Positions 8,175 to 24,508 of a DNA stretch of 32,250 nt are shown one piece after another. How positions within the stretch are numbered: position 1 is the first letter of the stretch; every line of letters begins with the position of its first letter. The translations under genes and the position numbers were made by a program. The notes under the pieces are model-generated. The model was not told the DNA's origin, did no database searches, and saw nothing but the letters and a program-made list of their open reading frames with translations. Source of the stretch: Phycisphaeraceae bacterium (lineage in GTDB: Bacteria > Planctomycetota > Phycisphaerae > Phycisphaerales > Phycisphaeraceae); the NCBI GenBank assembly GCA_020831765.1, contig JAFIFY010000103.1:1-32250 (forward strand). The letters run 5' to 3'.

Positions 8175-8969
8175 CTAGCCCTCATAGCCGAACGTCAGCG
8201 GGCGCATGGCGCGTGGAGCATCGAGCACTTCCTTCATCAGCCAGGCTCGTCGCAGCGCCTCGCGATCCTCTCCGATGCTGATCGCACCCGTACCGGAACC
8301 CCCGGGGACGGTCGTCTGGCCATGAGAGGCAAGGCGGGGCAAGGCGGCAAGGGACGGAATGGAAGGCATGGTGAACGGGTCTTCGCTCAGTCCGGCCTCC
8401 GTCATTTTATCGACGAGCGACTGGGAGCGGCGTTCCATCGAAGAAAAAGACTTGAAATCGCTGACCGACGCTCTGGTGCGCGTTTTGGCTGCTTCGGGCG
8501 GCCGACGTCGAACGGGGGTCGGATCGGCGGCGCGGGTTCGGCTCGTTGAAGCGGTGGGACGACGCTGGGGTGGGGTGGTCGTCCGCGAGGTAGTGGGCGG
8601 TGGAGGTGGGGGCGGTGGCGCGGCGGTCCGCTGGGCACGAGGGGTTGACCTGGTCTGACCCGTGAGCGGGGTGGACTGGCCGGTTGATGAGCTGGCCTGC
8701 TGGCGGGCCGCAGCGCGGCGCAACGCCTCGACACGCTGCTGATACAGAATCCGAGCCTGCTCCCGCTCAGTGCGCTCTTCGGCCAGCGGATCGCCCATTC
8801 GACTACGGTCCCGGCTCGAAAACTCCCGCCCGGTGGCCTCATCATCCGCGTCGAGCGATGCATTGGGCCTCGCCGGTCCCCGAACCTCGTTCATCTTCTT
8901 GATGGCCTGGAAAATCCAACTGAAGACCACGATGACCACGATGAGGATGGTGATGATGTCTGATGACAT
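8175..8969 (-). CDS. Proline-rich single-pass membrane protein with planctomycete-type C-terminal motif
   Basis: A 264-residue protein of unknown function. Residues 4-22 form an N-terminal transmembrane helix (IITILIVVIVVFSWIFQAI). A charged helix with Glu/Arg (about 55-95) follows, then a low-complexity Pro/Thr/Ser/Arg linker (about 96-165) with a run of eight or nine prolines. The folded tail ends in DREALRRAWLMKEVLDAPR. That tail resembles a short motif (hydrophobic-rich, ending in a Pro-x-x-x-R context) that I associate with many small planctomycete membrane proteins; this is memory-based, not searched. GGAAG precedes the ATG. Its position between the ABC ATPase and the macrodomain gene suggests one transcript. 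Confidence 0.72.
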   Translation of the reverse strand: MSSDIITILIVVIVVFSWIFQAIKKMNEVRGPARPNASLDADDEATGREFSSRDRSRMGDPLAEERTEREQARILYQQRVEALRRAAARQQASSSTGQSTPLTGQTRSTPRAQRTAAPPPPPPPPTTSRTTTPPQRRPTASTSRTRAADPTPVRRRPPEAAKTRTRASVSDFKSFSSMERRSQSLVDKMTEAGLSEDPFTMPSIPSLAALPRLASHGQTTVPGGSGTGAISIGEDREALRRAWLMKEVLDAPRAMRPLTFGYEG

Positions 8970-9033: not shown

Positions 9034-9852
9034 TTACCCCTCCGGGAGTCGCGTGGCGAACCAGGGGCGGGGCTCGTCGAATCCCTCGGGTCCGGCGTGG
9101 GGAATCATGGCCAGGCGAACGCCGTAGATCGGCTCGAGCACCTCCGGACGCAGGACATCCTTCCAGGGGCCATGTGCCGCCAGACGCCCGCTCTCCAGCA
9201 GCCACACTTCATCCGCGTATCGGGCCGCGAGGTTCAGATCATGCACGCTGACCAGCACCGCCAGGCCGTTCGAGGCCTGGTGTCGCAGAATATTGAACGC
9301 TTCGAGCATGTGCCGAAGGTCCATCGCGCTGGTGGGCTCATCCAGCAGCAACACCGGCGCATCCGTGCTCCCGATCGGCGTGGGGCACCCGACCTGAGCC
9401 AGGGCGCGGGCCAACAGAACCCGCTGCTGCTGCCCGGCCGAGAGCGTGGGAAACAGGAGATGCTGCTGCCGACCGAGGTCGCATTGGCGGATCGCCCAAT
9501 CGATCCGTTCGGCATCGGGAGGCAGTGCGTGGCGGCCCAGCTCGACCACCTCGCGGACCGAAAAAGCCAGGGGTGTGGATGTGGATTGAGGGACCAGGGC
9601 CGCGATCCGGGCGATCTGGCGGCGGGCCAGCCTTTCCAGAGGTCGATCGTGGAGCAGAATCCGCCCGCGGTCGGGCCGAAGAACACCCAGCAGCAGTCGA
9701 AAAAGCGTGGACTTGCCCGAGGCATTGGGGCCGAGCATCGCGGTGATGCGGCCCGGGGCCAAACGAGCGGAGCACTGTTGGATGGCATGCGGGCCATTGG
9801 GATAGGTGAAATCAAGGTCCGATATTTCGTAGGTGGCTGAATTATCGGACAT
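9034..9852 (-). CDS. ABC transporter ATP-binding protein (FecE/BtuD-like)
   Basis: A 272-residue nucleotide-binding subunit of the iron-siderophore/cobalamin/haem import type. Motifs in order: Walker A GPNASGKST (41-49), Q-loop Gln89, signature LSAGQQQR (137-144, Ala in place of the usual second Gly), Walker B VLLLDEP (167-173), D-loop SAMD and H-loop His204 in VSVHD. All residues needed for ATP hydrolysis are present. Such subunits normally work with a FecCD-type permease and a periplasmic binding protein; neither is adjacent, so the partner must be encoded elsewhere, or the permease was lost. The ATG at 9852 is preceded in frame by a GTG at 9855. It heads the leftward gene run and is divergent from the coiled-coil gene. 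Confidence 0.9.
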   Translation of the reverse strand: MSDNSATYEISDLDFTYPNGPHAIQQCSARLAPGRITAMLGPNASGKSTLFRLLLGVLRPDRGRILLHDRPLERLARRQIARIAALVPQSTSTPLAFSVREVVELGRHALPPDAERIDWAIRQCDLGRQQHLLFPTLSAGQQQRVLLARALAQVGCPTPIGSTDAPVLLLDEPTSAMDLRHMLEAFNILRHQASNGLAVLVSVHDLNLAARYADEVWLLESGRLAAHGPWKDVLRPEVLEPIYGVRLAMIPHAGPEGFDEPRPWFATRLPEG

Positions 9853-9880
9853 CACGGGGCTTCGGACAGGTCACGCCAGA

Positions 9881-10083: not shown

Positions 10084-13000
10084 ATGTCCTCAAGCCCAAC
10101 CCACTCCCCATCGGAATCCGGCCAACGCTCCAAGCTGCCCGATCCCACCCAGGTGCTGAGCATGCTGGCTCAGGTCGAGCAGCAGCTTGGCGATATCCGT
10201 CAGTGGCAGAGCGAAAATGATCGCCAGGCGGCCGAACTGGGCCGAATGGCCGAGGAGTTGGAGCGCAAGCGGATCGGGATCGAAGACGAGGCGCGGCGGA
10301 ACGAATCGCGTCGCCACTCGATTCGCAAGACCGTTGGACGCCTGCGCCAGCAACGTGACCGGATGCGTGAACTCGAGGCCGAGCGTGCCGAGCGATCGCT
10401 TTCACTGGAGAAACTCCAGGAAGAGCTGGAGGGGCGGCGACGGCAGCTTGATCAGGAGCGTCAGTCCCTGACGGAATTGAGAGCCCAGATCGACCTTCGG
10501 GGCGGCGAGATCGAGCAGCGCGAGCTTGAACTGACTGAACGCGAGAGCGATATCGCGGCGCTGGAGAGTCGCCTCCATGAGCGCGAAGGCGAAATCAATG
10601 TCAAAGAAGGTGAGATCAAGCTCTGGCATGAGGAGATCGAGCAGCAACGCAAGGCTCTGAATCAGGAGCGGGAATCGCTGGAATCGGGCAAGGCTGAGCT
10701 TGATGCGCTTGATGCCGAACTGAAGTCGATGCGTCAGGAGTTGGACGAGCGCGAGGCCGAGTTGGTTCGCCGCGATGAGGAATTCGAGCTTCGCGCATCA
10801 AAGATCGAATCGCTTGGCAACGAGCTCGAAACCCGGAAGGCGGAGCTTGACGAGCAGTGTCAAGAGATCGAAACTTCGCGCGCCCAGATTCAGCAGCGTC
10901 AATCCGATCTCGATGCCCAGGCATCGGAGATCGAGGCCCAGGGCGCCGAACTCGAAGCTCGCCAGCAGTCGCTGGACCAGCAGCGGCATCAACTCGATGA
11001 AGCCCGCGCCGCCCAGCGGGCTGATCGCCAACAACTCGATGAAATCCGCGCCTCGATTGATGAGGAACGCGCGGCCCTGATGGCCCGGAAGCAGAAGTTT
11101 GATCATCGCAGCGCCGATCTGGACAACCGCGAGGCTCAGCTTCAAAGCCGTGATGAGGATATCGAGGCCCGGATCGCCCGCGCTGAGAGTGACTTTCACA
11201 ATCGGGAAAAGCAACTCAATGAGCAGCGGAACCTGCTCGATACCCGGAAAGCGCAACTCGACAGGAACGATGAAGAGCTGCGATCCCGCGCCGAGCAATT
11301 GGAGGCCGATCGCAAGGAATTCGATGCGCTGCGCGCACGAATGGGATCGGAGCGCGATGCGCTGGATCAACTGCTCAAGACTTCAGCCCAGCGAGAGAAG
11401 GAACTGGACCAACGTAAGGCGGAGCTGGATCGGTTCGAGACCGAGCTCCTCGAAGCGCAGGAGAACTGGGAGCATGAGCGGAAGCAGCTTCAGGCCAGAA
11501 TCGAGCATCTGACCGCCGAGGCGGGTGATGTCGGCCGCTCACAGGACGAGGCTCTGGCCCAGATTCAGGAATGGCGTCTGAAGGCCGAACAGGCTGAGAA
11601 GCGAGTCGGGCAGATCGAGCAGGACATCGAGCAATGGCGCGACCGGCTCAGGGACGCTGAAGAATCCGATCGGCAAAGCCAGGAACGCGCTCAGGCCATG
11701 GAAGCGCGGCTGAGCGAATTGAAGGCGGAACTGGATCAGGCCCACCAGCAGGCCGGCGAAAACCAGCGAACCATCGAGGAACTTCAATCGGATGTGGCCC
11801 TGCTGCAATCCGAATTGCAGGAAGCTCGCCATGCGGTGGAGAAGGCGGCCCGGCAGGCCGAGGATGGCGATCCGCAACAGCGGCAGGCGCTTCAGGAAAA
11901 GCTGACCGATGCCCAGAAGCGGATCAAGTCGCTGGAGAACGAACTGCGGAACCGTGAGGAGGAACTGAGCGAGCAGCAGGCACGGGTTGATGAAAAGCAG
12001 AAACAGGCCGATGCGCTCAAGGCCCAGTTGCAGGAACAACAGGAGGCCCTTGAGCAGAGCCGGCTTGCGGCCGTTCAGGCTTCAGGTGGTCAACGCGCTC
12101 AAGAGGTTGAAGCGCGATCACGGGAACTTGACCAGCGGGAGAACGAACTGAAGGAGACCGTGGCCGCGGCCCGCGAGAAACTCAACAGCGAGCGGGAAAA
12201 ACTCAAGCAGGCCGAAGCCGAGCTTGCCCAGCGGGAGGCGCGGCTTGCCAGCGCGGCGGACGGTTCGGGATTCGTCGAAGGCATCGCACCCGAGGAGATT
12301 CGAAAGCAGGAAGCGGAAATCGCAGCGCGGCGTACCAAATTGCACAAGTATCGGGACATTCTTCGAGAACGCGCGGCGGCGATTCGCGAGGCCCAGACTT
12401 CTCTGGCATCCGCCCATGCCCAGTATCAGAAGCTGCTCCAGCACCGCCAGGTGCTTCAGGATGTCAAGCAGTTTCTGGCAGGCACCGAATCGGAGATGGT
12501 GCGTCGCTGGTCCACGCAGCGCGCGGCGGGCACAATCGCCGGGTTGATCTTCGCCGTCGTCCTGCTGGGGCTGACCAGCTATCTGGTCGGCCACAAGCTT
12601 GTGGAGCCGGTCTGGAGAGCCACAACCACCATCGCCCTGGACCCGATCCCCGGTCAGACGCTGGGTCAGTGGCGACAGTCCCAGCAGCGGGCGTTGCTGG
12701 CCGATCCGGTACTTCGCGAGACGGAAAATCAGCTCGCCCAACGCCGCTTGCGGCCGTACGACTCGGTCCAGGCCATGCGCGCCGGTCTTGAACAGTCGCT
12801 GACCGTCTCGTTCCCGCAGCCCGACCGTATGGAACTGGAGCTTCGGAAGACGGATAAAGACATCGCAACCTACACGCTGGAATTCCTCGCCCGGGCATTT
12901 GTCGGCCACTATCAGCAGGAGCCCACCGCCCCGAGGATCGAATCGCCCGCGTCCCATGACATCCTGCCGGTCAAGGATTTGCGACTTGCCGCCTCAGCCT

Positions 13001-13209
13001 CGTGTTTCGGTATCCTGCTGATTCTCGCCGCGATCGGATGGTGGGTGATCCGACGACGATTGGCCAATGCCCAACGCGTGCTCGATCTCGATCACGATAT
13101 ATTCCAGCCGGTGGACGATCAGTCCCAATGGCCCGATAGCCCGATCGAGCGGCTGGATGCTGAGTTGCTCGAGCAGGATACCCAGGCACCCATGCGGGAT
13201 GCCGGTTGA
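10084..13209 (+). CDS. Giant coiled-coil protein with C-terminal Wzz-like membrane module
   Basis: A 1041-residue protein. Residues 22-800 are almost entirely charged alpha-helix. Hydrophobic residues recur every seven positions from Leu115 to Ala367 (only Gln311 breaks the series), then after an 11-residue step again from Leu378 to Met420. A short Gly-containing break occurs near 738-745. Two transmembrane helices (about 814-836 and 968-990) bracket a ~130-residue segment resembling the Wzz/polysaccharide co-polymerase domain: an early VWRATTTIALDP strand, and a late segment with SLTVSFPQPDRMELEL and then FLARAFVGHY. A ~50-residue acidic cytoplasmic tail follows. GGGAG stands 6 nt before the ATG. 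Wzz-type proteins set chain length in O-antigen or exopolysaccharide export, and the dehydratase gene behind it fits that. The huge cytoplasmic coil is not part of classical Wzz. The Wzz resemblance is moderate; an SMC-like annotation would be misleading. Confidence 0.8.
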   Translation: MSSSPTHSPSESGQRSKLPDPTQVLSMLAQVEQQLGDIRQWQSENDRQAAELGRMAEELERKRIGIEDEARRNESRRHSIRKTVGRLRQQRDRMRELEAERAERSLSLEKLQEELEGRRRQLDQERQSLTELRAQIDLRGGEIEQRELELTERESDIAALESRLHEREGEINVKEGEIKLWHEEIEQQRKALNQERESLESGKAELDALDAELKSMRQELDEREAELVRRDEEFELRASKIESLGNELETRKAELDEQCQEIETSRAQIQQRQSDLDAQASEIEAQGAELEARQQSLDQQRHQLDEARAAQRADRQQLDEIRASIDEERAALMARKQKFDHRSADLDNREAQLQSRDEDIEARIARAESDFHNREKQLNEQRNLLDTRKAQLDRNDEELRSRAEQLEADRKEFDALRARMGSERDALDQLLKTSAQREKELDQRKAELDRFETELLEAQENWEHERKQLQARIEHLTAEAGDVGRSQDEALAQIQEWRLKAEQAEKRVGQIEQDIEQWRDRLRDAEESDRQSQERAQAMEARLSELKAELDQAHQQAGENQRTIEELQSDVALLQSELQEARHAVEKAARQAEDGDPQQRQALQEKLTDAQKRIKSLENELRNREEELSEQQARVDEKQKQADALKAQLQEQQEALEQSRLAAVQASGGQRAQEVEARSRELDQRENELKETVAAAREKLNSEREKLKQAEAELAQREARLASAADGSGFVEGIAPEEIRKQEAEIAARRTKLHKYRDILRERAAAIREAQTSLASAHAQYQKLLQHRQVLQDVKQFLAGTESEMVRRWSTQRAAGTIAGLIFAVVLLGLTSYLVGHKLVEPVWRATTTIALDPIPGQTLGQWRQSQQRALLADPVLRETENQLAQRRLRPYDSVQAMRAGLEQSLTVSFPQPDRMELELRKTDKDIATYTLEFLARAFVGHYQQEPTAPRIESPASHDILPVKDLRLAASASCFGILLILAAIGWWVIRRRLANAQRVLDLDHDIFQPVDDQSQWPDSPIERLDAELLEQDTQAPMRDAG

Positions 13210-13380
13210 TGGCCGAGCCCTCCTGACTCCACGACCTTATCCCCGCGTTGGGAGACGGTATGATCTGGCGTTTGGTCGTCGCGGGCTTGCCCGAGCCGTA
13301 CTGGCTGTCCGCTGGCGATGCCGGTGCGGCCCGAGTGGCCAATCGCCCCGGAGGCAAGCGGCATCGAGTGGAGAACCCTC

Positions 13381-14997
13381 TTGGCAACAGACAGCGGTCC
13401 AGCCCCCCAGCCATCGACCTTCCGTGAAGATCGATTGGCCGAGCGCAGACTGCGCACGCTCATCGTTGGGACAACGGCGACGGTTCCTCAGATTGCCCAG
13501 ATGCTCAAGTACGCTCAGCCGCCGCGCGACTTGATCGGCTGTGTGCTGCCGCAGACCCGCCAGGACGCGGTGGACGGTGAGATCGCGGTGCTGGGCGGGT
13601 TCGAGGAAATGGACCAGGTGTTGCTCCGGTTCGGTGTTGAGCAGGTGCTGGTGAGCTTGCCGATCGCGGCAGAACGGCAGGCGAGGAGTCTGCTGTCGAC
13701 CATCGAACGGGCTGGCATCACCTGGCGCTGGATGCCGGCGCTTGCGGACCAACTGGCTGGTGATGTTCGCCCGCCGTTTCAGTTCCGCTCGAGCCTGCCG
13801 CCCAGTGGCGAGGACATGCCGATCGGCCCGCGATCTCCGCTGGGGCTCTATGGTGTGATCGCGCCCGAGAAGCTCCTGGACCGCACGCCCAGGCCGTTGG
13901 ATGAAGAGTTGATCGGCGGGATCATCAAGGATCAGGTCGTCATGGTCACGGGGGCCGGCGGATCGATCGGTTCGGAGCTGGTCCGGATCGTCTGCCGATT
14001 CTCTCCGGCGCAGGTGGTGTTCGTGGAACGGGCGGAAAGCCCACTATTCGAGATCGATCGCGAGGTCGCGACCGACTTCCCCGCGCTGCAGCGCGGGGCG
14101 GTTCTTCTTGATATCACCGACCGACAGCGCGTGCTGACCACCATGAAGCGATATCGCCCTCACCTGGTTCTACACGCCGCGGCGCTCAAGCATGTGGGAT
14201 TGATGCAGGACCGGCCGGCCGAGGCGATCGAAAGCAATATCCTCGGAACACGCGCTGTCGCGGAGGCCGCCTCCGAGTGCGAGGTCCGAAGGTTCGTGAT
14301 GATCTCCACGGACAAGGCGGTCTATCCGCATTCGGTCATGGGATCGACCAAGCGACTGGCCGAGATTTTCGTTCAGCACCTCAATCAGCGGTGTCCAACG
14401 ATCATGTGCATGGTACGGTTCGGCAATGTGCTGGGCTCGGTGGGAAGCGTGCTGCCCATCTGGTCCAAGCAACTGGCCGCCGGGCTTCCGCTGACGGTCA
14501 CCGATCCGGAGATGACCCGGTATTTCATGACCATTCCCGAGGCGGCCGGGCTGGTGCTTCAAGCGGCCGCGATGTCCGGTGGCGCGGGCGCCGGTCAGGC
14601 CGATTCATCGGCCGGCCCGGAGGGCCCGCGCGGCGGTGGTGAGGTGTTTCTCCTGGATATGGGCGATCCGGTGAACATTCTCGAAATGGCCCATCGATTC
14701 ATCCGGGCTCACGGCCTCGAGCCCGACCGCGATATTCCCATCGTCATCACCGGCGCGCGACCGGGCGAAAAACTCCATGAAGAACTGCTCTACGATCGCG
14801 AAACCCTCACCCCGACCGCGCATCCATCCATTCGCCTTCTCCATGCCCAGGTCCCCGGGGATGAACGGGTCCTCGAGATGCTCAAAGCCCTCGAAGCGCT
14901 ACGCGCCGCGGGCAACGGCTTTCCGTGGCAGTATGCCGATCGCGATGAGTTGATCAGCCTTCTCCGCCACCATGTGGAGAAACTGGGCGCCGGATGA
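13381..14997 (+). CDS. CapD/WbpM-like nucleotide-sugar 4,6-dehydratase, soluble form
   Basis: A 538-residue enzyme of the polysaccharide biosynthesis CapD family (UDP-GlcNAc 4,6-dehydratase-like, extended SDR). An N-terminal Rossmann-like CoA_binding_3-type domain spans about residues 25-100. The catalytic SDR domain starts at TGAGGSIG (190-197). The active-site phrase STDKAVYPHSVMGSTKR (309-325) carries Met where small FlaA1-type enzymes have Tyr, as in the large WbpM/PglF type. RPGEKLHEEL is also present. Unlike WbpM, it has no N-terminal transmembrane helices. A Gly/Ala/Ser-rich insert at about 399-420 is unusual. I prefer the TTG at 13381, with GGAG 7 nt upstream; the ATG at 13318 lacks a ribosome-binding site and would add 21 residues. 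It follows the Wzz-like gene by 171 nt, suggesting a shared role in surface polysaccharide. Confidence 0.87.
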   Translation: MATDSGPAPQPSTFREDRLAERRLRTLIVGTTATVPQIAQMLKYAQPPRDLIGCVLPQTRQDAVDGEIAVLGGFEEMDQVLLRFGVEQVLVSLPIAAERQARSLLSTIERAGITWRWMPALADQLAGDVRPPFQFRSSLPPSGEDMPIGPRSPLGLYGVIAPEKLLDRTPRPLDEELIGGIIKDQVVMVTGAGGSIGSELVRIVCRFSPAQVVFVERAESPLFEIDREVATDFPALQRGAVLLDITDRQRVLTTMKRYRPHLVLHAAALKHVGLMQDRPAEAIESNILGTRAVAEAASECEVRRFVMISTDKAVYPHSVMGSTKRLAEIFVQHLNQRCPTIMCMVRFGNVLGSVGSVLPIWSKQLAAGLPLTVTDPEMTRYFMTIPEAAGLVLQAAAMSGGAGAGQADSSAGPEGPRGGGEVFLLDMGDPVNILEMAHRFIRAHGLEPDRDIPIVITGARPGEKLHEELLYDRETLTPTAHPSIRLLHAQVPGDERVLEMLKALEALRAAGNGFPWQYADRDELISLLRHHVEKLGAG

Positions 14998-15829: not shown

Positions 15830-17332
15830 TCAGAATGTGAAGGCAACCTGCAGATAAAAGAAATCCAAGCCGCGCCCGGGGCCACTTTCGCGGATGAATG
15901 CGCCGGGGAAGAATCGGCAGTAACCCGCTTCGAGGGTCAGGTTCTCGGTCGCGCGGTAGCGGACCAGGAGGTCAAACTCCGTGCCGAGATATCGTGAACC
16001 GCTCGCCGCCGGGTCGCGAAACCGGGCGCCGGCGAGGTTGTAGGGACCATCATCGCCACTGGCGCGCCAGAACAGATGGACCGAGGCGATGATGTCCCAT
16101 CGTGCATCCGGATGAAGCGAGATGCCGGGATTGACCGCGATGATGTTCTGCCGTCCCAGGATATCCGCCCAGCCCAGGTAGGCATGCCCCAAGGGAAAGA
16201 GGTGGTCGAAGGTCTCGATGGTCGAGCCCGAGCCGCGTGTCCCCGATGCATAGTCAAAGCCGACGAACACGCGCGGCCGCCAGTCAGCGTCGGCGAATCG
16301 ATAGCCGATCTGGGATGCGAGCATCCAGGCGCTTATGTCCGAATCGCCCAGGGTGCCGAACTGGTAAGCGCTTTCGACATCCACGTCAAAGCCGGAATCG
16401 CCAATCGGCCCGTGCAGGCGGGCTCCAAGCGTGTGACGCTGATGTTCCCCGGTGACGCCGGCGAATGTCGCCTCGTTTTCGTACAGCCCGAACCAGTATC
16501 CCTCGGCCTTGAAATTTGAGCCGGGAATGTCGAATCGGCCGTGAACGCCGCAAAAATCCCGGCTGTTGTCGGTGGTGTTGAATTCGTACTTGCTGATCTC
16601 CACCGGACGGCTCAGAAACCCGGTGAACGCAAAACCCGGGCCTTCAAGAATCCCCGAGATCGCATCGAAAGTCCGCCGCGTGTTGGACCAATCCAAGGGG
16701 CTCACCAACCTCTGGCTTCCAAGCAGCATCTCCTGCCTTCCGACTCGCAGTGTGAAAGCCGCTGAATCCCCAAGGGGAACGCGCAGGTCGGCGAAGGCGT
16801 TCTGCAACGCGAAGGTGTCAACATCCAGCACCCGACGGCCACCCGGAAGATTGCGCTCAGTGGCATGGGAGCTTTTCAGCTCCACGAAGAACCGCACCGC
16901 TTCCTCCAGTCGCAGGTCGCCGTGCAGACCAAGACGATGGAGCGTAAACACATCATTCTGATCGCCATCGAAACCGAAGTTGTTCCACCCCTCAACGCGG
17001 AAGCGATACTGCCCGCCCAGAGTCAGGTGGATGTCCGGCTCTCGATGAATGGTGATCCACTTGATCGGATCGAAAAAGTCCGCCGGAGCATCATCCGGCC
17101 GCGCGGCCATCGTTGACCAATCCTCGGCGTAGCGCGGAACCCGGTAACCAGGCCGTGTCCAGGGAACCGGCGCCGCCTCAGGTTCGGTAGTGGTCTGATC
17201 GACGCCCACGACTTCCGATGAAGGGGTCGCATCGCCGATTTCCTGGGCGGATGCTTCATTCGCCACCAATCCCGAGCCCGTAAAACACAACACGAAGGTA
17301 ACGATCCAGCACACCGTGAATGTGTTGTTCAT
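15830..17332 (-). CDS. Alginate-export-type outer-membrane porin
   Basis: A 500-residue beta-barrel protein of the alginate-export (AlgE-like) family. It has an N-terminal signal peptide (about residues 1-30, hydrophobic core then AxA-type end ANEASAQ), a short acidic linker, then long alternating amphipathic strands from about residue 105. Examples are LTLGGQYRFRVEGWNNFG and FTLRVGRQEMLLGSQRLV, the family-typical stretch where a charged strand meets the first barrel turns. The protein ends in aromatic Phe (LQVAFTF), the usual outer-membrane insertion signal. Members export anionic polysaccharide or act as general diffusion porins; no alginate genes are adjacent, so the substrate is unknown. 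The ATG at 17332 has GGAG exactly 6 nt upstream; the one at 17338 touches that sequence and is a worse start. It implies a Gram-negative-type outer membrane. Confidence 0.85.
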   Translation of the reverse strand: MNNTFTVCWIVTFVLCFTGSGLVANEASAQEIGDATPSSEVVGVDQTTTEPEAAPVPWTRPGYRVPRYAEDWSTMAARPDDAPADFFDPIKWITIHREPDIHLTLGGQYRFRVEGWNNFGFDGDQNDVFTLHRLGLHGDLRLEEAVRFFVELKSSHATERNLPGGRRVLDVDTFALQNAFADLRVPLGDSAAFTLRVGRQEMLLGSQRLVSPLDWSNTRRTFDAISGILEGPGFAFTGFLSRPVEISKYEFNTTDNSRDFCGVHGRFDIPGSNFKAEGYWFGLYENEATFAGVTGEHQRHTLGARLHGPIGDSGFDVDVESAYQFGTLGDSDISAWMLASQIGYRFADADWRPRVFVGFDYASGTRGSGSTIETFDHLFPLGHAYLGWADILGRQNIIAVNPGISLHPDARWDIIASVHLFWRASGDDGPYNLAGARFRDPAASGSRYLGTEFDLLVRYRATENLTLEAGYCRFFPGAFIRESGPGRGLDFFYLQVAFTF

Positions 17333-17349
17333 GATCATCTCCAGGAACG

Positions 17350-20536: not shown

Positions 20537-20551
20537 TCGCCGGCGACGTTG

Positions 20552-21292
20552 ATGGCCATGCGGCTATCATGGAGCGTGTTGCGGTCCCTTGATCAACGTC
20601 GATGTGCGCCCGAGTGGATGGATGACCCGAATCTGGATGCGGCGATGCATCAGCAGGCGTTGGCCGGTCTGGCGCGCATCGGACGGCTCAGCGGGACGGT
20701 TGTGCAATTCTGGAAGCGACTGCGCGCGATCCATCTGCGTGAGGGCGGACGGCGGCTGCAAGTTCTGGACCTGGCCACGGGTGGTGGTGATGTGGTGATC
20801 GCGCTGGCCCGCCGCGCTGCTTCCGAGCGAATTCCGATGGGGTTTACCGGTTGTGACAATCGCCAATTGTGCCTCGAACGGGCGGGACGGGAATCGGCGA
20901 GCATCGGGGTCAAACCCAACTGGGTATGTGCTTCGCTGCCCGATTGGCGGCCCTGGCAACCGTTCGATGTGGTGATCAGCAATCTTTTCATTCATCATCT
21001 GCCCACACCGGCGGTCGCCGACCTGCTCAAAGCCATGCCTTCTTACGGTCGATACGGCCTGATCTGCGACCTTGACCGCAGCTATCTGGGGCTGGCCATG
21101 GCGTGGCTGGGCTGCCGTGTGCTATCCCGATCGCCGGTGGTGCATGTGGATGGTCCCCGGTCCGTTCACGCGGCACTGACGGCCGGCGAGATTTCGGCCC
21201 TGGCCCGGAACTCTGGGTTGACCGCGGCGCGGGTGACTAAGATCTGGCCGCAACGCTGGATGCTTTCCTGGACCCCGATGAGCCCGTCGTGA
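20552..21292 (+). CDS. SAM-dependent methyltransferase of the type III PKS cassette
   Basis: A 246-residue class I methyltransferase. Motif I is VLDLATGGGD (about residues 71-80), motif II ends in GCDNRQLCLERA, and the post-I acidic/aromatic region is DVVISNLFIHHLP. The N-terminal RRCAPEWMDDPNLD phrase resembles methyltransferases found beside type III polyketide synthases; that is recalled, not searched. It would methylate a hydroxyl or carbon of the polyketide product, but the substrate is unknown. Three closely spaced start codons (TTG 20549, ATG 20552, ATG 20558) lack a clear ribosome-binding site. It starts 15 nt after fumC, and its TGA overlaps the GTG of the next gene (GTGA), so these are almost certainly co-translated. 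Confidence 0.87.
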   Translation: MAMRLSWSVLRSLDQRRCAPEWMDDPNLDAAMHQQALAGLARIGRLSGTVVQFWKRLRAIHLREGGRRLQVLDLATGGGDVVIALARRAASERIPMGFTGCDNRQLCLERAGRESASIGVKPNWVCASLPDWRPWQPFDVVISNLFIHHLPTPAVADLLKAMPSYGRYGLICDLDRSYLGLAMAWLGCRVLSRSPVVHVDGPRSVHAALTAGEISALARNSGLTAARVTKIWPQRWMLSWTPMSPS

Positions 21293-22524
21293 TCACCATC
21301 GCCAACGAGAAAAACTTGGATTCTCAGGAAATTGTTGGGTCCGGCCGCCGTCCGGACGGCACGGGGCGGACCGATCAGGTCTGGGATGTGGTGGTGGTGG
21401 GCGCTGGGCCGGCGGGCGCGGTATCGGCCTTTCTGCTTGCGGGCATGGGATTTCGCACGTTGGTGGTGGAGCGATCACCCTGGCCCCGCCCCAAGCCGTG
21501 TGGCGGCTGCCTGAGCCATGCCGGCGTTCATCTGCTGGAGCGGATCGGTCTGTCTGGTGTGCTTGAAGAGGTTGGAGCCGCCGCGACCGATCGGTTTGTC
21601 CTGGAGTGGCAAGGCCGCCGCGCATCGGTTCCCCTGGCGGCCGGCCGGGCGTTCGGACGCCGGCGTTTCGATGAGGCGGTGATGAAGCAAGCGATGGCGG
21701 CCGGAGCATGCTTTGTGACGCGGGCCAGGGCGTCATTGGCCGCCGTCGATGGGGACCACCGACGGGTTCGGCTTGAGTGCGATGGAGCAACCCGGGAAGT
21801 ACGCGCCAGTCTCGTGCTGGCGTGCGATGGCTTGCACGGAAGGCTCATGGCGGGCATCAGCAATCAGGCGCGGTGGATCAACCCCAATAGCTGGATCGGA
21901 TTGGGCGCTGCCATTCCTCCGGGTGTGGTTGAACTGGAGCCCGGTGAGATTCGCATGGTTTGCGCTGATCGGGGCTATGTCGGTCTGGTGCGGATCGAGG
22001 AAGGTGCCGTTGATATCGCCGCGGCGTTGGACCCGGCTTTGATCCGGGAACGGGGCTCGCCATATACGGCGATTCAGTCCTGTCTTGACCAATCCGCCGA
22101 TCGTGATCTCGTTCACGCCGTAACCGCGGAGCTGGGCAGGTCTGAACCCCTGCGGGGCACGCCGGCGCTGACGTGGCGATGCCAACGCGCTTGGGAGAAT
22201 CGAGTCCTGGCCGTTGGTGATGCCTGTGGTTATGTCGAACCATTCACCGGCGAAGGGATGAGTTGGGCGATTCTGGGTGCCGTGGCGGTGGCGAGATCGG
22301 CTCGAAAGATTCTTGAACGGGGCTGGTCGGAGCAATTGGGACAGGATTGGGACCGACGACGCGGCCAAGGTGTCGTTGCGCGGCGGATTGGATGTGGATT
22401 GATCAGCCATGCATTGCGGTATCCGAATCTGGCCTATGGCATTGTGAGCGGCCTTGCTCGATTTCCCCGACTGGCCCGATCGGTGACCGGACGATTGCAC
22501 CGGCCGTGGCGGGTGAACATATGA
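21289..22524 (+). CDS. FAD-dependent oxidoreductase (geranylgeranyl-reductase/FixC-like)
   Basis: A 411-residue flavoprotein. The FAD-binding Rossmann motif VVVGAGPAGAVSAFLL begins near residue 35, RSPWPRPKPCGGCLS (about 63-77) is the family's second signature, and the FAD-ribityl motif LAVGDACGYVEPFTGEGM is near 305-322. This places it with geranylgeranyl-reductase-like and halogenase-related flavin enzymes. It probably oxidises or reduces the polyketide product; no Trp-halogenase WxWxIP motif is seen. The first ~30 residues look disordered. The GTG start shares four bases with the methyltransferase stop, and the gene's stop overlaps the next ATG (ATGA). These overlaps point to tight stoichiometric expression with the synthase. 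Confidence 0.9.
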   Translation: MITIANEKNLDSQEIVGSGRRPDGTGRTDQVWDVVVVGAGPAGAVSAFLLAGMGFRTLVVERSPWPRPKPCGGCLSHAGVHLLERIGLSGVLEEVGAAATDRFVLEWQGRRASVPLAAGRAFGRRRFDEAVMKQAMAAGACFVTRARASLAAVDGDHRRVRLECDGATREVRASLVLACDGLHGRLMAGISNQARWINPNSWIGLGAAIPPGVVELEPGEIRMVCADRGYVGLVRIEEGAVDIAAALDPALIRERGSPYTAIQSCLDQSADRDLVHAVTAELGRSEPLRGTPALTWRCQRAWENRVLAVGDACGYVEPFTGEGMSWAILGAVAVARSARKILERGWSEQLGQDWDRRRGQGVVARRIGCGLISHALRYPNLAYGIVSGLARFPRLARSVTGRLHRPWRVNI

Positions 22525-23639
22525 ATGCGCAGCATGGTGATGTAGGAATCCTGGGGCTGGGCACGGCCACTCCGCGAGGAAGGCTCAGTCAGGAGGACGC
22601 CGCGCACTTTGCCGTCAAGCGATGTGCTCGTAATGAACAGGAATCGCGCTGGCTGTTGCGACGATACGGCCAATCCGGTGTTTCGCGGCGACATGTCGCG
22701 GTGCTCGATGCCGATTCATCTTCCCAGGAAAATGCTCAGGAAGCCTTCATCCGCTTCTACCCCGAGCCTGGCTCGTCGGAGGCTAACTCCGGTCCGAGCA
22801 CCGAAGCGAGGATGCGGCTCTATGAGCGATCGGCTCCAGCGTTGGCCGCCGAGGCGTGTCGCGAGGCGATCGAAACGGCGGGAGTGGAGGCGGATTCGAT
22901 CACCCACCTGATCACCGTTTCCTGCACCGGCGCGGTATCACCGGGTCTGGGGGAACGGCTGATCCCGCAACTGGGCCTGTCGGCAACGGTCGGACGTGCT
23001 TCGCTGGGATTCATGGGTTGTCATGGCGGCTTCAATGCCGTGCAGGTGGCCCGTAAGCTGATTGAAGCCGATGCGCGGGCGTGCTGCCTGATCTGCTGCG
23101 CGGAGCTTTGCTCCCTTCATTTTCAGTACGGATGGGATCCTCAGGCCATCGTGGCCAATGCCCTGTTCGGCGATGGTGCTTCATCGATGGTCATCGGCAC
23201 TGCGCAGCCGGTTGGATCGATGCGGATTGTTCATGGCGCCAGCCGCTTGATCGCCGGAAGTGGCGATGCCATGACCTGGCGGATTGGTGACCATGGGTTC
23301 CGGATGACGCTCTCACCCGAGGTGCCCAAGCTCATCGAAACACACCTGCGAGTCTGGGTTGAAAAGGAGCTGTCAAGCCGCGGCCTGTCGATCGATGATG
23401 TCGAACAGTGGTTAAGCCATCCGGGCGGCCCGGCGATCCTGGAGGCCGTGGAAAGGTCACTGAAGCTCAAGCCCGAGGTCCATGCGATCTCCAGACAGGT
23501 ATTGGATGATCACGGGAACATGTCGTCGGCGACGCTGGGGTTTCTCCTTGAGCGAGGCGGGGTGGGGAAGAAGCTGACCGTCGCCCTGGGGTTCGGGCCG
23601 GGATTGGTCGCCGAGCTTCTGGTCTTGCATGGCGGATAG
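22521..23639 (+). CDS. Type III polyketide synthase (chalcone/stilbene synthase-like)
   Basis: A 372-residue thiolase-fold homodimeric ketosynthase that extends an acyl-CoA with malonyl-CoA without an acyl carrier protein. The catalytic triad is readable: Cys167 in GFMGCHGGFNA, His300 in LSHPGGP, and Asn333 in HGNMSSAT. VSCTGAVSPG (133-142) and ALFGDGASSM are also typical. The product (alkylpyrone, alkylresorcinol, quinone or other) cannot be read from sequence. The ATG at 22521 overlaps the preceding stop by four bases and starts at the conserved N-terminus; the longer open frame from 22347 lies inside the oxidoreductase gene. A 32-nt gap separates it from the phosphorylase. A phosphopantetheine-independent small-molecule pathway is therefore encoded here. 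Confidence 0.95.
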   Translation: MNAQHGDVGILGLGTATPRGRLSQEDAAHFAVKRCARNEQESRWLLRRYGQSGVSRRHVAVLDADSSSQENAQEAFIRFYPEPGSSEANSGPSTEARMRLYERSAPALAAEACREAIETAGVEADSITHLITVSCTGAVSPGLGERLIPQLGLSATVGRASLGFMGCHGGFNAVQVARKLIEADARACCLICCAELCSLHFQYGWDPQAIVANALFGDGASSMVIGTAQPVGSMRIVHGASRLIAGSGDAMTWRIGDHGFRMTLSPEVPKLIETHLRVWVEKELSSRGLSIDDVEQWLSHPGGPAILEAVERSLKLKPEVHAISRQVLDDHGNMSSATLGFLLERGGVGKKLTVALGFGPGLVAELLVLHGG

Positions 23640-23671
23640 CCTTGTTTTGATCTTGTGATTAAGATCGCGGC

Positions 23672-24508
23672 ATGATCGAAGGCGATTCGAGAATCGATCT
23701 GCTGGTTATCGCATCGATGGCGCGTGAGCTTGGGCCGGTGGCATCAAGACTGGGCTGGAGCCGACCGCCCGAGGGTGCGCGGATTGTGCGTGCGTCTGCG
23801 ATGGGCGATTCGCGGTCAGCCTGTCACCGGCTCTCGGGTCGCTGGAAAGAATCGCGAATCGCGCTGGTGGTGACCGGCATCGGGCGTGGCTCGGTGGATG
23901 GCCTGCTTCCACGACTACTCAGGGGATTATCGCCGCGCGGCGTGCTTCTGGTCGGGCTTTCCGGCGGGCTCAATCCGCGCCTCGACGGCGGTGAGGCGCG
24001 GCGGATTGATCGCGCGATGGCCGGGGGACGGCCCATGCTTCTCTTGGGCGAGGATGGAAGTGTGCGGGAATCGCCCAATGAGCGGAGCGAATCATGGTCT
24101 GCCGAAGCCGTTTCAGTCCTGACGGTGGACAGGCCGTCCATGACACTGGCCGATAAGTCAGCGCACCATCACGCCACGGGAGCCGATCTGATCGATATGG
24201 AAACGTATCACGTGGCATGGCATGCGTTACGCCAGGGCGTTGCCTTCTGGTGTTTTCGGGGGGTCAGCGATCCGGCCGATGCCGGGCTGCCAGCCGGCCT
24301 TTTGCATCATGTCGGCCCGGACGGCCGCGTGAATGTCACCGGATTTCTTGGATGGCTGGTGTGCAACCCAAGAGAATGGGGCACGCTATGGCGCCTGGGG
24401 CGTGACAGCCGCCGGGCCGTCGCATCGGTAGCCGGGATGGTGGAGGCATGGGCGGGCAACCAGCCTTGGCTGAGCGTCGGATCAGGAAGAACTTCCGCAC
24501 TTGACTGA
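23672..24508 (+). CDS. Nucleoside-phosphorylase-superfamily protein (HpnG/MTAN-like)
   Basis: A 278-residue member of the PNP/UDP phosphorylase fold. Seen are VVTGIGRGSV (66-75), the ribose-contacting Met176-Glu177 in DLIDMETYHVAW, and the base-contacting Ser199-Asp200 in FRGVSDPAD; these fit the methylthioadenosine/S-adenosylhomocysteine nucleosidase and hopanoid HpnG branches. The FRGVSDPAD ending is most like HpnG-type proteins. The possible reaction is cleavage of an N-glycosidic bond in an adenosyl compound. Two readings compete: breakdown of S-adenosylhomocysteine left by the cassette's methyltransferase, or a hopanoid/adenosyl side-chain step. It lies 32 nt behind the polyketide synthase, without a good ribosome-binding site, so co-transcription is likely. 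Confidence 0.82.
   Translation: MIEGDSRIDLLVIASMARELGPVASRLGWSRPPEGARIVRASAMGDSRSACHRLSGRWKESRIALVVTGIGRGSVDGLLPRLLRGLSPRGVLLVGLSGGLNPRLDGGEARRIDRAMAGGRPMLLLGEDGSVRESPNERSESWSAEAVSVLTVDRPSMTLADKSAHHHATGADLIDMETYHVAWHALRQGVAFWCFRGVSDPADAGLPAGLLHHVGPDGRVNVTGFLGWLVCNPREWGTLWRLGRDSRRAVASVAGMVEAWAGNQPWLSVGSGRTSALD

Follow-up and report, generated by a model that had tools for sequence, protein, structure and literature searches.

The coil-dome gene and its surroundings

The window analyzed in this study, that is, the whole stretch of 32,250 nucleotides from a Phycisphaeraceae bacterium, carries on its forward strand a gene in which a long cytoplasmic coil is fused to a membrane hairpin with a periplasmic dome. 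The features of the gene and its two flanking neighbors are as follows:

9034..9855, reverse strand: ABC ATPase of the FecE/HmuV type, divergent and upstream, a neighbor in Phycisphaeraceae
10084..13209, forward strand: whole gene, cytoplasmic coil plus membrane hairpin with PCP-type periplasmic dome (1041 aa, reading frame open throughout)
10147..10218, forward strand: conserved N-terminal cap, residues ~22-45 (TQVLSMLAQVEQQLGDIRQWQSEN), the distal tip of the rod (from the alignment)
10174..11343, forward strand: single-hydrophobic heptad rod, residues 31-420, with a single 11-residue stutter at 360-371 (from register analysis)
11344..12483, forward strand: coil part 2, residues 421-800, with predicted helix breaks near 481-486, 595-596 and 727-735 (from the model)
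12424..12516, forward strand: conserved pre-membrane motif, residues ~781-811 (LLQHRQVLQDVKQFLAGTESEMVRRWSTQRA) (from the alignment)
12535..12591, forward strand: TM1, residues 818-836 (hydrophobic helix; AlphaFold model)
12601..12969, forward strand: periplasmic PCP dome, b-a-a-a-b-b-a-b, residues ~840-962, with linker Pro962 (from profile and model)
12970..13026, forward strand: TM2, residues 963-981 (hydrophobic helix; AlphaFold model)
13027..13206, forward strand: cytoplasmic tail of ~60 aa with a conserved ...L..LD...W(S)P motif (Trp1016) (from the alignment)
13318..14997, forward strand: CapD-like nucleotide-sugar dehydratase (PF02719), a downstream neighbor in this genome only

The cap residues E32, L35 and Q42 were invariant and Q23, L27, L28 and W41 nearly so in a 15-member alignment, and Pro962 before TM2 was invariant among 15 members and near-invariant among 40. 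The members read full-length share the cap consensus LLxxLExRLGQLKxWQ, a QRQxLxEVKxFLxxSExEMxRRW motif leading into TM1, an A...PVxDxRLxxAGxxFG motif leading into TM2, and LD..xxW(S)P in the tail. The length of the coil between the cap and the pre-membrane motif varies widely among members, from 250 to 930 residues.

Several observations were made on other genes in the window. The CapD/WbpM-like dehydratase (13318-14997) comprises the CoA_binding_3 part, shows no evident N-terminal TM helices, and is apparently soluble. The gene that follows the ABC ATPase, at a place where one might look for a permease, encodes a small charged protein with a single TM helix and no Pfam match (8175-8969, reverse strand), and a similar pair of ATPase and small protein recurs divergently upstream in several family loci. 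An AlgE-like alginate export porin (PF13372) is located at 15830-17338 on the reverse strand, with no other alginate genes recognized nearby. In addition, a methyltransferase, an FAD-dependent oxidoreductase, a type III polyketide synthase and a phosphorylase-superfamily gene stand in a row at 20549-24508 on the forward strand, possibly forming a small polyketide cluster.

Register and geometry of the heptad rod

The first-pass annotation, made from the letters of the sequence, described Leu, Ile or Phe at exact seven-residue spacing from residue 115 to 367, with Q311 and A367 as exceptions, and our counts bear this out. The positions 115, 122 ... 367 are occupied by 21 L, 12 I and 2 F, giving 35 hydrophobic residues in 37, and the best register of the shuffled 115-367 stretch had no more than 20 in 20,000 shuffles. 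The residue after each heptad hydrophobic is D or E in 24 of the 37 cases and the residue at +3 is R or Q in 21, as had also been noted; LIVFM residues account for 16% at +3 and 5% at +4 within this stretch, which leaves one hydrophobic core position per heptad, again in agreement with the annotation. The step of 11 residues from 360 to 371 and the resumption of the series up to 420 are likewise seen in the sequence (F371, L378, L385, L392, L399, L406, F413 and M420). By a 90% criterion, the register runs without a break for 48-49 heptads and starts at residue 31, inside the N-terminal cap.

At the DNA level, the gene shows no tandem repeat, either with a period of 21 or with any long unit. 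A recent expansion of a DNA repeat was therefore rejected, and the heptads are maintained at the protein level. Across the family, in which the heptad reads L-[DE]-x-[RQ]-[RQ]-A-[EQ], unbroken single-hydrophobic registers reach 66 heptads, and 22 of the 40 members have at least 20, against a maximum of 9 in shuffled coils. Several members, belonging to some of the families, are weakly regular, with runs of just 4-14 heptads, indicating that the rod need not be very regular.

The alignment gaps show how the coil changes in length. Counted over pairs of related proteins, which are not all independent, 14 of 19 gaps inside the heptad run were multiples of 7, compared with 23 of 107 in the rest of the coil and 11 of 67 for simulated random-length indels aligned identically. 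The rod gaps relative to the two closest relatives measured 7, 28, 21, 7 and 7 residues. As the gaps are mostly whole heptads, the length of the coil drifts while the register is held. With Leu placed at d, the g-e' pairs were 11 attractive versus 3 repulsive, and with Leu at a, 5 versus 8; the former charge pattern, as read from the sequence, is compatible with self-association of the chains and suggests that they are parallel and in register.

The full-length AlphaFold model was helical between residue 23 and TM1, apart from breaks near 481-486, 595 and 727-735 and a further, doubtful break at 196-219, all of low confidence, and its mean pLDDT of 67.9 is too weak for coil geometry. Taking 0.15 nm per residue for a fully helical chain, residues 23-800 would span ~115 nm and the strict rod ~58 nm. 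The long cytoplasmic rod that the annotation had envisaged is supported. The NCBIfam matches of the coil to SMC, Rad50 and others were far under the cut-offs and reflect coiled-coil composition.

A PCP-type dome in a family of the Phycisphaerales

The C-terminal part had been described as a Wzz-resembling segment enclosed by two TM helices. Both helices were recovered, whereas the limits of the periplasmic segment had to be corrected to about residues 840-965. Searches of Pfam, NCBIfam and PDB with the single C-terminal sequence gave no Wzz match over threshold, and the window protein scored 12.8 bits against PF02706 (gathering score 25.5; E 0.15). Although the window protein thus lies below the cut-off, 14 of the 40 members match PF02706 weakly (best E 7.8e-5), and the family profile matched Wzc in PDB with an E of 4e-4.

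Structure prediction of the monomer gave a PCP-type fold. The AlphaFold model of residues 762-1041 (pLDDT 87.8) consists of TM1, a strand, three helices, two strands, a helix, a strand and TM2, and the top Foldseek matches of the dome model were KpsE, Wzc and Wzz. The VIA-align Z scores were 16.4 for Wzc (174 residues), 11.8 for KpsE and 8.0 for WzzE; since unrelated folds reach 8.8, Wzc and KpsE stand clear, while WzzE by itself would not. The 189 residues of the model correspond to a 437-residue span of Wzc. In Wzc numbering, motif 2 covers residues 110-206 and motif 3 residues 268-402 (PMC8285477). In all 40 members, helix alpha4 and the linker Pro are 30-45 aa apart, within a periplasmic part of 118-138 aa, which leaves no room for counterparts of these two motifs, and the crown or hairpin is missing in 40 of 40. 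Therefore, the periplasmic part is a true PCP dome, but the dome only, with the crown/hairpin, Wzc motif 2 and the kinase gone; the claimed likeness to Wzz holds for the dome and not for the remainder of Wzz. The matching dome, or motif 1, makes the octameric ring contacts in Wzz, Wzc and KpsE (PMC8285477, PMC7809406, PMC11041684), and the linker proline P293 of WzzB is required for function (PMC7809406). Judging by its position, Pro962 is probably the equivalent of P293.

Using the C-terminal part alone as the query, the family was found in 76 of 121 genomes, and using the family profile in 88 of 121 (E<=1e-10), distributed over Phycisphaeraceae and five other families of Phycisphaerales and usually in single copy per genome. 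The long N-terminal coil was present in every intact member read. An assembly error was rejected, as the coil-dome fusion recurs in dozens of independent genomes; the fusion is old and has been maintained across the order. Two findings had been named beforehand as speaking against the proposed fusion protein, namely a lack of profile similarity to Wzz-type domains and the absence of the fusion from relatives; instead, Wzz/Wzc-type similarity was found, and relatives conserve the fusion. As about a quarter of the good genomes do not have the family, the protein is not essential. Elsewhere in the phylum, the profile matches were mostly Wzc-type BY-kinases with TM helices near 60 and near 450, and no coil fusions were found among them. 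The weak matches at three loci of the phylum outside the order (L112, L114 and L116) were discarded for want of the coil-plus-dome architecture, as was a chance match in Microbispora (L100). The family thus seems confined to Phycisphaerales.

Some members deviate from the common pattern. Two family members lie side by side in G071:C1:445560-448004 (the L055 region), and second copies occur in G059 and G075, both Phycisphaeraceae. In G066:C2 (L066/L132), the gene is split over overlapping frames of 540 + 204 aa, owing to a frameshift, a pseudogene or a sequencing error. The member at L127:1752-4853 (G009) has an Ala/Glu-rich insert of ~50 residues after dome strand 1, and its coil is interrupted by several acidic linkers.

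Six further proteins or fragments without a dome, several per genome, were found only in two genomes (G032 and G012):

L122:668-3730, dome-less paralog
L122:16563-17627, dome-less paralog
L123:1-603, dome-less paralog
L124:4203-5726, dome-less paralog
L125:3990-6398, dome-less paralog
L126:5778-6845, dome-less paralog

These paralogs keep the coil (~930 aa in one of them), the pre-membrane motif, the two TM helices and a similar tail, while a loop of ~20 residues replaces the dome; in those that are full-length, the N-terminal cap is present too. No shared theme was evident among their neighborhoods. Since cap, coil and membrane hairpin are kept when the dome is not, the coil and its anchor form the lasting unit, and the paralogs give the strongest hint that the functional core is the coil plus the membrane hairpin.

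Possible function and comparison with known systems

The first-pass annotation suggested that the rod couples polysaccharide assembly to a cytoplasmic scaffold. The corresponding explanation is a fourth, minimal PCP class, in which the dome ring would control a Wzy-like or synthase-type polymerase and the coil would gather cytoplasmic glycosyltransferases or report state; we regard it as possible but unlikely. The dome fold and topology match those of PCPs, the linker proline is retained, and the CapD-like gene lies directly downstream in the window. However, a CapD-like downstream neighbor occurs in one of the 38 loci with a downstream gene, so that, of the expectation that relatives carry the fusion beside such a gene, the fusion held (88 of 121 genomes) and the adjacency did not. 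Housekeeping genes are found instead, the commonest downstream neighbor being ribosomal protein L13 (7 of 38 loci), and an MqnC-like radical SAM gene occupies the ATPase's upstream place in other families. Neither an operon partner conserved across families nor recurring polysaccharide genes near the family loci were found, and the same genome has a separate locus for Wzc (GNVR, Wzz, P-loop), Wza (Poly_export, SLBB) and a glycosyltransferase. The missing crown weighs in the same direction, as the periplasmic helical bundles of Wzc were reported to be essential (PMC8285477), and so do the dome-less paralogs. Neither the neighborhoods nor the anatomy of the protein thus lend support to the coupling to polysaccharide assembly. 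It is very improbable that the dome ring surrounds or supports a transporter using the divergently encoded ATPase next door, as KpsE would. KpsE is the second-best structural match, and in 21 of 25 Phycisphaeraceae loci the ATPase gene is found upstream in divergent orientation. The ATPase, however, is of the FecE/HmuV type and not KpsT/Wzt, no permease adjoins it, and its pairing with the rod gene, not seen in the other five families that have the protein, may reflect no more than local synteny.

The coil itself could stay monomeric, as a single alpha-helix that forms no bundle and serves as a spacer fixing the distance of the cap, which corresponds to the charged single-helix tether of the annotation. 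Charged residues and Q abound in the coil, and its second core position is polar; yet the strict hydrophobic stripe, up to 66 heptads long and with whole-heptad indels, would be unneeded by a lone helix. The opposite-charge i,i+4 pairs (14 + 13 in 253 residues) are in no clear excess over those at i+3 (11 + 14) and i+5 (9 + 22). Given the strict stripe and this modest pairing, the rod departs from ER/K single alpha-helices and has the hydrophobic heptad register beyond chance of a coiled coil, and a single helix is accordingly the less likely form and, as an explanation of the protein, quite unlikely.

We give about an even chance to the explanation we favor, namely a membrane-anchored, mostly parallel coiled-coil rod that is oligomerized by the PCP dome, bears a conserved distal cap, and serves as a tether or scaffold. 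From the observed sequence, family, fold and register, we infer the oligomer, the coil orientation and the function as follows. The domes and TM hairpins would self-associate, as in the rings of Wzz, Wzc and KpsE, and the ring would gather several chains, whose coils would form bundled rods extending ~55-115 nm into the cytoplasm. Through its conserved cap, the far end of the rod may bind a partner or another rod, and the protein would tether or space something relative to the inner membrane; candidate partners are the nucleoid, a fold of an internal membrane, an enzyme and a second rod. The dome would then be an oligomerizing anchor and not a chain-length regulator; since nearly all members keep it, it must do something that plain oligomerization may not explain.

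A bolder form of the tether explanation, which is rather improbable, makes the reduced PCP ring the foot of a ~100 nm cytoplasmic coiled-coil tether that keeps the nucleoid, a fold of an internal membrane or a macromolecular complex at a fixed distance from the inner membrane, as a bacterial counterpart, in architecture, of golgin-type tethers. Should the tether or scaffold explanation be right, a PCP ring has been reused to anchor a scaffold in the cytoplasm. Across the order, the helices outside the membrane have been lost and a rod several times their length is found on the inner side, and some relatives have dropped even the dome. The gene would offer a concrete subject for study in planctomycetes, whose cell organization is poorly explained.

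Three PCP classes have been described, and all of them, to our knowledge, work via long helices outside the membrane. Like PCPs, the family has a periplasmic alpha/beta dome between two TM helices, and the linker proline; it has no extended periplasmic helices, and its genes lie in no polysaccharide polymerase or export locus. As the crown, the PF02706 gathering score and the genetic context all fall short, the family should not be counted among the working PCPs; it is a divergent relative that has the dome in common with them. A literature search with incomplete coverage returned no description of a PCP that carries a cytoplasmic coil.

Among the known systems, the class-2 PCP Wzc, a BY-kinase (7nhr, PF02706 + PF13807), is the best structural match to the family dome and shares the topology and fold of TM1, motif 1 dome and TM2, as well as the proline before TM2. 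In contrast to Wzc, the family has no motif 2 jellyroll, motif 3 helices, kinase or Tyr tail (Pfam and NCBIfam scans showed no P-loop kinase domain of BY-kinases and no Tyr-rich tail) and instead bears an N-terminal cytoplasmic coil of 250-930 residues. The class-3 PCP KpsE (8tsh) shares the dome fold and two TM helices, whereas the family is without crown helices or a KpsMT partner gene and adds the cytoplasmic coil. The class-1 PCPs WzzB, WzzE and FepE (8bhw, 3b8o, 3b8m) share the dome fold, TM topology and a proline near TM2, but the family has neither their 100-angstrom helical barrel nor a Wzy/O-antigen locus, and its cytoplasmic part is large. Golgins have a long N-terminal cytoplasmic coil and a C-terminal membrane anchor; the family resembles such tethers in architecture, by analogy only, and differs from them in its two TM helices and periplasmic dome.
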